NCBI RefSeq assembly: GCF_963676065.1
Contig: NZ_OY780933.1
Location: forward strand, 744,001-808,000
DNA length: 64,000 bases
From: Maridesulfovibrio sp.
Lineage (GTDB): Bacteria; Desulfobacterota; Desulfovibrionia; Desulfovibrionales; Desulfovibrionaceae
Direction: 5' to 3'
A program made the translations under genes and the position numbers. Below, piece after piece: positions 53,163 through 56,186 of the stretch (position 1 is the stretch's first letter; the number at the start of each line of letters is the position of its first letter). Under the pieces are notes generated by a model that worked only from the letters and a program-made list of their open reading frames with translations, made no database searches and had not been told where the DNA came from.

Positions 53163-53888
53163 TTACTTCTTCTTAACCGGATAAACCAGCAAAACAACTC
53201 TGCGGTTACGCTTCTGGTTTTCAGGGAGAGCTTTGCCGTTCTTATCTTCGTTGGGATATGCGGGAGCTGTATCAGCCATGCCGAGAACCTTGATGTGTGA
53301 CTTGCTGAATCCGTTATCAAGCAGGTAACGGGCAACAGCACTGGCCCGTGCAGAGGATAGTTCCCAATTGGACGGAAACTGTTCAGAATGAATCGGGATG
53401 TTGTCGGAATGACCTTCAACCACAACATTATATGGAGATTTTGCGAGAGTAGGAGCGATTTTTGCCAGTATTCTTTTGGCACCGGTGGTCAGGTCTGCTT
53501 TACCGCTGGGAAAAAAGAAACCGCCCTTAAGCACAATGGCGACAGAATCCGGCCGCATCTTGATCTTCAAGGCTTTGGATTCACGCCCTACCAGCCGGGC
53601 CATTTCAAGCTGCATTTCAAATATATTGCGCTGCTTCTTGCTGATAACCCTCCGGGCGACAGGAGCACCTTCAAAGGTATCGTATTGTCCCTTTGGAGGG
53701 ACAGGCACGCCCATGGCCGAAGCCAGTGAATCCGAGACGTCCTTATACTTCTTTTGATCCACATCGGCGATTGCCAGCAAAAGCACAAAAAAGCAAAGCA
53801 GCAGAGTCATCATATCTGCAAGAGTCAGGGCCCAGCCGCCCTCTTCGCCGCCTTGAGCAGGCTTTTTCAGGCTTAAATCATCCGACAT
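53163..53888 (-). CDS. motB: Flagellar motor stator protein MotB
   Basis: A 241-residue inner-membrane stator subunit. One transmembrane helix holds the proton/sodium-carrying D25 (WALTLADMMTLLLCFFVLL). After a linker comes an OmpA-like peptidoglycan-binding domain (VEGHSDNIPIHSEQFPSNWELSSARA, ENQKRNRRVVLLV). It follows motA by 12 bases. It is slightly short for MotB because the plug-linker is compact. It is the last gene of a three-gene operon headed by the cNMP-FliG hybrid. Confidence 0.94.
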   Translation of the reverse strand: MSDDLSLKKPAQGGEEGGWALTLADMMTLLLCFFVLLLAIADVDQKKYKDVSDSLASAMGVPVPPKGQYDTFEGAPVARRVISKKQRNIFEMQLEMARLVGRESKALKIKMRPDSVAIVLKGGFFFPSGKADLTTGAKRILAKIAPTLAKSPYNVVVEGHSDNIPIHSEQFPSNWELSSARASAVARYLLDNGFSKSHIKVLGMADTAPAYPNEDKNGKALPENQKRNRRVVLLVYPVKKK

Positions 53889-53900
53889 ATAATTCTCCGC

Positions 53901-54677
53901 TTACTTCTTGGCCTTGACTGTGGCCCATTTGCGCGGGGGCAGATAGCCTTTAAGCTTATCCATTACAATTGCGGACGGGGTTTTATCCTTGATAAAAAGA
54001 ATGCCGTCTCGAATAACCCTCATGAGCAAAGTGATCTCATCAATCCGCTTTTCCACTTTAATAGCGATAGGCATAAAAAGCATATTCGCGAAAAGAGCAC
54101 CATAAAGAGTGGTGGTCAATGCCGTAGCCATGGCTGGTCCGATAGCCGCAATGTCGCTGCCCATGCCCTGCATCATGGCAATCAGGCCGATCAGAGTACC
54201 GATAATTCCGAAAGCCGGAGACAGGGTGGACATGGTTCGGTAGATTCCGGCGGCGCTGTATTCCTGCTCGTGATACTGCTGAATGCGGTTATCGAGAATC
54301 TCCTTGATCTCTTCCTTTGAATAACCATCCACAAGCATCTGCAAGCCTTCACGCAGAAAATCGTTTTCAATATTCTTGAGACTGCCTTCAAGGTGTTCCT
54401 CACCTTTTGCAGCTACATCCTTTGAAAGATTAACAATCACATTAATGTAGTTTTCAAGGGGCAGTTCATCTGCGCCCATGGCCATCATGAAGACACCGAG
54501 TACACGCATTACTTCACGCAACGGATAGCAGATAAAGGTGGAGGCGATGGTTCCACCGCCAACGATTGCGATCCCGGGCAGGTTGATGAAAACCCCGACC
54601 GAATCAGTGGAAGTGTAGGTCGCGACCATAAGGATGGCTATACCGCAAAATATACCGATTATGGTGGCTATATTCAC
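53901..54677 (-). CDS. motA: Flagellar motor stator protein MotA
   Basis: A 258-residue stator subunit with four transmembrane segments. Typical pieces are GIFCGIAILMVATY, PGIAIVGGGTIASTFICYPL, the cytoplasmic loop with EHLEGSLKNIENDFLREGLQM that meets FliG, and STLSPAFGIIGTLIGLIAMMQ with the proline of TM3. The ATG overlaps the stop of the upstream cNMP-FliG hybrid gene (54674-54677), so stator synthesis is coupled to that protein. Confidence 0.94.
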   Translation of the reverse strand: MNIATIIGIFCGIAILMVATYTSTDSVGVFINLPGIAIVGGGTIASTFICYPLREVMRVLGVFMMAMGADELPLENYINVIVNLSKDVAAKGEEHLEGSLKNIENDFLREGLQMLVDGYSKEEIKEILDNRIQQYHEQEYSAAGIYRTMSTLSPAFGIIGTLIGLIAMMQGMGSDIAAIGPAMATALTTTLYGALFANMLFMPIAIKVEKRIDEITLLMRVIRDGILFIKDKTPSAIVMDKLKGYLPPRKWATVKAKK

Positions 54678-55840
54678 TTTTTATCCCCCCCTTTAATCTC
54701 CCTGACCATTTCAAAAAGTTCGACGAGAACATCCTCAGCTTCGGTCTCATCCACATTATCACGCACTTCATCCTGCACGATCTTGGCGATCTTTTTGGCA
54801 AGGTTGGCCAGAATTTTCTTGCGGGCATCGTCTTCGGCAATGCTCATTAGCACGCCAAGCTTGTGGTAACCGAGACGGGAAAAGATTTCTTTTAAAGTCG
54901 CATTATCAACGTAGACAATATCTTCAATATCTTCCAGATCATCAATGGACTTCTTCTTTTTCTTGACCTTGCTGAAGTAGTCCGGTTCCTTCTCGGAAGC
55001 CCATTCACTGACCTTGTTGCGGTCGAACATAAACATGGTTTCCGGAAAATCTTCCTGTGCTATCTTCTTGTATATGATTTTGGGGTCACTCTCCAGCATC
55101 CGCGAAATTTCGTAGATATCCACAATCTGTAACTCTGAGGTGGGAGTATATGCATTCTGTTGCAATTCCTTGAACAGGTTATTTGCAACCTCCAGAAAAT
55201 TATCAGGATCAGATATCTGAATAAAGCGGTCGGGAAAAGCCTTACCGGTGCGCAGATCAATGGCATCAATAATTTTCAGACTTTTGAGCTTGCTTATCAC
55301 CGCGTCGATATCGCTTTGAGAGATAAGAATAATACTGCGGATAGTCTTACAGAGCTTGTTATAGTCAAGACCGAGATCATAATTGCGTTCTTTGCGGGCC
55401 TGTTCGCGGTCCATGCTGATATGTGTACGATACGCCAGATCAAGAATATTACAGACACTTATAAAATTGCTGCGATGTCCCTTGGAGGAAATCATGTCAC
55501 CTGTACGGGCCAGACGTTTGACCAGCAGACGGGTCATATATTGGATGGTCCGTGGACACTGATCAAGCAACTTGAGAATAATCTGATCAGTAAGGATTAC
55601 GAGGTCACAATACTCGGCGGCTTCGGCATTGGCAGAACGGACACCTTTGGAAATGATGCCCATTTCACCGAAAATTTCGCCTTCGCCGAGACGGGCAAGA
55701 ACAATTTTTTCGTTATTCTGAACCTTGTAAATATTTACCGCGCCCTTTTTAATCATATAGGCTACGGAACTCTCCTGTCCTTCCTTGAATATTTCCTGTC
55801 CCTTAAAAAAGGACTTAATGTTAGGACTGCTGGACCCCAT
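54674..55840 (-). CDS. Cyclic-nucleotide-binding protein with FliG-C-like domain
   Basis: A 388-residue soluble hybrid. Residues about 5-120 are a cNMP-binding domain (IFKEGQESSVAYMIKKGAVNIY, LGEGEIFGEMGII, RSANAEAAEYCDL). A winged-helix-like part follows (LCKTIRSIILISQSDIDAVI), then an excisionase-like helix set (VDIYEISRMLESDPKIIYKK). The last 85 residues resemble the torque domain of FliG: ATLKEIFSRLGYHKLGVLM, then ARKKILANLAKKIAKIVQDE. At the FliG torque-charge positions, Lys in LAKK and Asp-Glu in VQDEV are kept. The start is the ATG at 55840 behind GAGGGAG. It is translationally coupled to motA and motB. Confidence 0.82.
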   Translation of the reverse strand: MGSSSPNIKSFFKGQEIFKEGQESSVAYMIKKGAVNIYKVQNNEKIVLARLGEGEIFGEMGIISKGVRSANAEAAEYCDLVILTDQIILKLLDQCPRTIQYMTRLLVKRLARTGDMISSKGHRSNFISVCNILDLAYRTHISMDREQARKERNYDLGLDYNKLCKTIRSIILISQSDIDAVISKLKSLKIIDAIDLRTGKAFPDRFIQISDPDNFLEVANNLFKELQQNAYTPTSELQIVDIYEISRMLESDPKIIYKKIAQEDFPETMFMFDRNKVSEWASEKEPDYFSKVKKKKKSIDDLEDIEDIVYVDNATLKEIFSRLGYHKLGVLMSIAEDDARKKILANLAKKIAKIVQDEVRDNVDETEAEDVLVELFEMVREIKGGDKK

Positions 55841-56186
55841 TAAAAACTCCCTCAAGATAGCCCGTATAAGGGCGAAATAAGTAGACTCGTATGCGACTCG
55901 GCTAGAACAGACGGCAAGATAAGATAGCAAATCAACCGATTCTGTGACAATAAAATTAACTGCTTCAGTTGTTAACATATATTAGATCACTATAAAGAAC
56001 AACTTAACTAAAATTTATGACAAAAAGTTATAGAAATAAAGCACTGAAAATATCCCTTGAATCATGCCGCAATTCACCGCTGTTTTACACAGCCATAAAG
56101 AACTTACTGTGCGGGCCAAATACTGCTACCCTGCTTCAACGCGGAAGAAAATTTTAAAACAATCGAACCACTCTTCAGGAACTGAC
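55841..56186. other. Divergent intergenic region
   Basis: It separates the minus-strand motor operon from the plus-strand cardiolipin synthase gene and must hold both promoters. It is AT-rich from about 55920 to 56060, with no clear consensus promoter or sigma-28 site. An in-frame extension of the synthase up to 56064 is open but has no ribosome site. Confidence 0.4.

Follow-up and report, generated by a model that had tools for sequence, protein, structure and literature searches.

The operon described here encodes a protein in which a cyclic-nucleotide-binding (CNB) domain is joined to the torque domain of FliG, followed directly by the MotA and MotB subunits of a stator. The fusion protein is probably a cyclic-nucleotide-responsive partner of this one dedicated flagellar stator, with its FliG_C head predicted to dock on MotA. 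We favour this explanation because of the identity of the FliG_C domain, the complete co-occurrence and adjacency with motAB (36/36), the monophyletic and altered MotA, the conserved CNB contacts, the cyclases encoded in the genome and the restriction of the operon to FliG-positive genomes.

The fusion gene and its operon

The fusion gene (P0001) was found where the first-pass annotation had placed it, at 54674..55840 on the minus strand, and encodes 388 amino acids. The start at 55840 is preferred over that of the longest ORF (55978), because its ATG is preceded by a GAGGGAG ribosome-binding site (55847..55853, minus) and because it fits the family alignment. The gene is the first of three and is followed on the same strand by motA (53901..54677; 258 amino acids, PomA-like) and, as had been claimed, by motB (53163..53888; 241 amino acids, with MotB_plug and OmpA domains). 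The annotation was also right that the stop codon overlaps the start of motA, but this start is a GTG and not an ATG: TGA and GTG share the sequence GTGA (54674..54677, minus). The same stop/start overlap is found in 41 of the 43 operons measured, and by this arrangement of codons the fusion gene and motA are translationally coupled in a fixed operon. In the window, that is, the whole stretch of 64,000 nucleotides that was analysed, the gene upstream of the operon is divergent and the gene downstream convergent, and the operon lies outside any flagellar cluster.

The C terminus is a FliG torque domain

Residues 300-383 (54692..54943, minus) are a FliG torque domain (C1-6), by which FliG contacts MotA. 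Pfam FliG_C (PF01706) matches residues 300-382 with 29.9 bits at a curated cut-off of 23.3 bits, and a match was found in 29 of 29 aligned orthologues (best E 3.7e-11). When the last ~105 residues were run as a profile against all PDB sequences, the top 11 matches were all FliG (best E 2.6e-10) and those below were noise. In a structure search with the whole model, CNB and CRP matches took up the list and the C terminus was not informed; the C-terminal domain was therefore predicted alone and gave six helices at a pLDDT of 86. The first 16 Foldseek matches of this model are FliG torque domains, most of which align in VIA-align with Z 11-13 and 1.6-1.9 Å; the matches include 8ucs, FliG bound to a MotAB stator (Z 11.9). 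FliG middle domains reach Z 7-8 and MgtE Z 6 or less, and an assignment of the C terminus as MgtE-like or FliG-M thus is the weaker fold match. A chance similarity to FliG is ruled out by Pfam, the PDB profile and the predicted fold. The first-pass annotation had recognised a FliG-torque-like segment here and had proposed a profile or structure comparison with FliG-C; the three approaches agree with it, and all best PDB and Foldseek matches are FliG.

Only this part of FliG is present. The whole-protein model TIGR00207 gave 22.5 bits at a cut-off of 226.7 and matched residues 304-369 only, and in Pfam no FliG N or M domain scored above threshold in the fusion protein. The N and M domains attach FliG to FliF and FliM. 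The sequence MFMF at residues 268-271 resembles the MFXF hinge motif of FliG, but it is neither conserved in the paralogues nor adjacent to the domain and is treated as chance.

Charges of the torque helix and an altered MotA branch

The torque helix (54767..54793, minus) carries K350, D357 and E358 at the positions of R281, D288 and D289 of E. coli FliG. Among the 44 motA-linked copies, position 281 is Lys/Arg in 42, position 288 Asp/Glu in 41 and position 289 Glu in 41. The earlier observation that Lys and Asp/Glu are kept at the charge positions therefore holds for these three, but not for K264, whose charge is gone (S/A), nor for R297, which is replaced by Asp and so reversed in charge in 39/44. 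D297 is common in unlinked copies, too. Overall, the torque-helix charges are best kept in the motA-linked copies; unlinked paralogues tend to lose the acid at 288.

In the known motor, MotA and FliG are in contact via R90/D288-D289 and E98/R281 (PMC12505986). The MotA of this operon scores best with PomA and has A89, E97 and R131 as equivalents of E. coli R90, E98 and E150. In a tree with 32 further MotA, taken from the same genomes and from related ones, the linked MotA form one monophyletic branch (support 100/100) that is divergent overall and sits on a long stem. Position 90 is Ser/Ala/Thr/Gly in all 43 linked MotA and Arg/Lys in all 32 others, whereas E98 is kept in every sequence. Two further positions are charge-reversed: position 92 is Lys/Arg in 39/43 linked MotA versus Glu/Asp/Gln elsewhere; at position 150, 42/43 linked MotA have Arg and 30/30 close comparators Glu. 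The FliG acids usually pair with R90; without this residue, the classical salt bridge cannot form in the way it does in E. coli. Switches between the two classes occur also outside the rotor face, and the change of the contact motif is thus part of a wider divergence.

Canonical FliG has not followed. K/R264, R281, E288, D/E289 and K/R297 are kept in 21 carriers of the operon and 20 non-carriers alike; hence, the charge changes in MotA are unmatched in canonical FliG. As a hypothesis, they may instead fit the fusion head. It is tempting to go further and to assume an orthogonal torque interface, in which the stator no longer fits rotor FliG in the normal way and has been rewired to a cyclic-nucleotide-gated FliG-C head of its own; we regard this as possible, but on the doubtful side. 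If true, a cAMP/cGMP signal would decide on the connection of stator and motor, and the cell would have a second, chemically switched gear.

That the fusion protein replaces canonical FliG, as the first-pass annotation had also considered, is rejected: it has no N and M domains with which to bind FliF and FliM, and all carriers (36/36) have canonical FliG in unaltered form. It could still be an extra rotor part that adds a torque surface to the C-ring for the altered stator, instead of canonical FliG. The altered contact motif of MotA with no matching change in canonical FliG would fit to this, as would the reversed charge at 297. However, nothing is known that would fix a protein lacking the N and M domains of FliG to the ring, and we consider this unlikely, although it is the strongest of the alternatives.

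Distribution of the operon

Full-length copies of the fusion gene are present in 37 of 119 Desulfovibrionaceae genomes sampled, and in 36 of these 37 motA-motB follows directly. The exception (G014) has no motAB-linked copy but only one of 29% identity. A search with the partner MotA (E<=1e-75) retrieved 36 genomes, exactly those with a linked fusion gene. The conserved linkage to motAB, a lack of which the first-pass annotation had named as evidence against its reading, is thereby found. The operon occurs in 36 of 103 FliG-positive and in 0 of 16 FliG-negative Desulfovibrionaceae genomes; the hypergeometric chance is ~0.002 by our own estimate, which ignores kinship. In the order sample the gene was found in no family other than Desulfovibrionaceae, and in a phylum sample of 395 genomes full-length copies outside this family were only distant ones from one other family. 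The same three-gene operon is also present on a contig labelled Nitrospirae (L064), by transfer or mis-binning.

These data bear on the idea that MotAB and the fusion protein are a separate rotary machine working outside the flagellum. The MotA branch is divergent and long-stemmed, the operon is outside a flagellar cluster in the window and further MotAB sets are encoded elsewhere in the genome, all of which would fit such a machine. On the other hand, the partner stator has not only a MotA_ExbB channel domain in MotA but also the plug and OmpA domains in MotB that are typical of flagellar stators (PMC12505986), and not a single FliG-negative genome has the operon. We therefore give a non-flagellar machine little credence, slightly less than an additional rotor part.

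Paralogues and other FliG_C proteins

Two tandem full-length paralogues without motAB (38% identity; L016:8521-10830, G000:C1:3100520-3102829) are encoded in the genome. Nearly every sampled genome of the genus has such a tandem pair, and in G603 and G611 one of the two copies contains an in-frame TAG. A 273-aa protein (L017:8389-9210) has a strong FliG_C match (75 bits) outside any flagellar cluster, and an 836-aa protein (L018:8065-10575) has a C-terminal FliG_C that keeps the torque motif SERAxxMIRED and adjoins a transposase-like ORF.

Unlinked paralogues of the same architecture count against the favoured reading in that FliG_C may serve another target. Together with the other non-flagellar proteins of the genome that carry FliG_C, they could indicate that the domain is a general helical interaction module, comparable to MgtE-like repeats, and that it is linked to motAB for a different reason. 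This seems improbable, since it is the torque domain that is matched and not FliG-M or MgtE, the torque-helix charges are best kept in precisely the motA-linked copies, and these copies co-occur with one MotA branch without exception.

The CNB domain and the middle region

The CNB domain comprises residues 7-116 (55493..55822, minus). The N-terminal cNMP-binding domain seen in the first-pass annotation is confirmed by the Pfam model cNMP_binding (E 1.1e-17, residues 9-94) and by the presence of the main cAMP-contact residues. In the structure search the best matches among solved structures are Bd1971 with cAMP or cGMP bound (Z 17, 40-42% identity). Within the phosphate-binding cassette (F-G-E...R, residues 57-68; 55637..55672, minus), E59 is conserved in 44/44 and R68 in 42/44 motA-linked copies; the equivalent of CRP Thr127 is not conserved. 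The domain looks ligand-competent, and binding of a cAMP/cGMP-type nucleotide is predicted.

Four class III cyclases are encoded in the genome. Elsewhere, a gene for a Cache-HAMP-class III cyclase is followed directly by a CNB-FliG_C homologue (L069:1587-5134), and on a Candidatus Tectomicrobia contig a CNB-only gene is located directly 5' of an ordinary motA-motB whose MotA keeps R90 (L087:1719-3989). These two arrangements are a hint, on thin evidence, that cyclic nucleotides and stators have been linked more than once. A distant CNB-FliG_C gene from another Desulfobacterota family (L134:841-2055) lies between genes for a histidine kinase and a GGDEF response regulator.

Up to about residue 221 the protein aligns with CRP-family structures, and residues 125-221 (55178..55468, minus) form a degenerate CRP-like winged helix. 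In place of the DNA-reading residues R180, E181 and R185 of CRP there are Gln and conserved acidic residues, and the recognition helix is mostly neutral to acidic compared to +2 in CRP. The whole-protein CRP model NF008732 reached 47 bits at a cut-off of 266, and Pfam returned no HTH family for the fusion protein. The segment of three small helices predicted by AF2 at residues 240-284 (54989..55123, minus) is HTH-like by eye only; no family match in Pfam supports the excisionase-like HTH suspected there. With the DNA-reading residues replaced, DNA binding is unlikely, and the transcriptional role that the first-pass annotation had left open is weakened. Least probable of all is a CRP-like regulator that acts on its own operon and uses FliG_C to sense free MotA in a feedback loop: the alignment of the first 221 residues would suit it, but the lost reading residues, the uncharged to acidic helix and the missing HTH match speak against it.

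A model for the fusion protein

The best-supported reading is a cAMP/cGMP-type signal acting at the stator, as had been suggested; it is predicted from the domain identities, the linkage to motAB and the MotA branch. The fusion protein would be produced together with its stator from the fixed, translationally coupled operon, and its torque domain (C1-6) would dock on the partner MotA at its cytoplasmic ring, replacing or beside rotor FliG. A cAMP or cGMP molecule bound by the CNB domain may then shift the exposure or the affinity of the FliG-C head, and the state of the head would decide whether the partner stator engages the rotor; the sign of this effect is itself a supposition. In short, a FliG mimic would hold or release MotA under cyclic-nucleotide control. 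The most likely form, albeit a tentative one, is a stator-specific clutch or brake; next comes a docking or activating factor, for which we see a somewhat smaller chance. Apart from the unlinked copies and their D297, the absence of R90 from the partner MotA, the overall divergence of this MotA, its switches beyond the rotor face and the lack of conservation at the CRP Thr127 equivalent count against the model.

To our knowledge, most known cases in which a second messenger controls the motor involve c-di-GMP and PilZ proteins. Literature searches in open-licence papers found no description of a CNB-FliG_C architecture. Our data suggest that the flagellar motor is under direct chemical control by a CNB-FliG_C protein, which was not described before, with cyclic mononucleotides acting directly on a stator and not via transcription. 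If true, the model would explain the several stator sets of these bacteria. The CNB-FliG_C protein and the altered stator branch are, in addition, a natural test of the charges by which MotA recognises FliG.

Comparison with known systems

The partner stator resembles PomAB-type stators in that its MotA scores best with PomA and its MotB has plug and OmpA domains, but the R90-x-E92 motif is changed to S/A-x-K/R and E150 to Arg. With CRP/FNR regulators the fusion protein shares a CNB domain and, behind it, a winged-helix-like segment; unlike these, it has lost the DNA-reading residues and continues for ~170 more residues to end in FliG_C. The closest solved CNB domain is that of Bd1971 of Bdellovibrio (CNB-EAL), which binds both cAMP and cGMP (PDB 6hq4, 6hq5, 6hq7), but the output of Bd1971 is a c-di-GMP phosphodiesterase and not a FliG_C domain. 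FliG and the fusion protein have in common the C-terminal torque domain and most charges of the torque helix; the fusion protein is without the FliF- and FliM-binding domains and has canonical FliG as a separate protein in the same genome.

In its predicted role, the fusion protein is similar to the PilZ stator effectors YcgR, FlgZ, MotI and MotL, second-messenger binders at the MotA-FliG contact (PMC10140304, PMC12713396, PMC8203827). YcgR, which may be considered the nearest functional parallel, also binds this stretch of MotA; its suppressors lie at Q91, G93 and S96 (PMC12713396). These proteins sense c-di-GMP via PilZ, a domain for which Pfam gave no match in the fusion protein, whereas the latter combines a CNB domain of the cAMP/cGMP type with a genuine FliG torque domain, in an operon with its dedicated stator.
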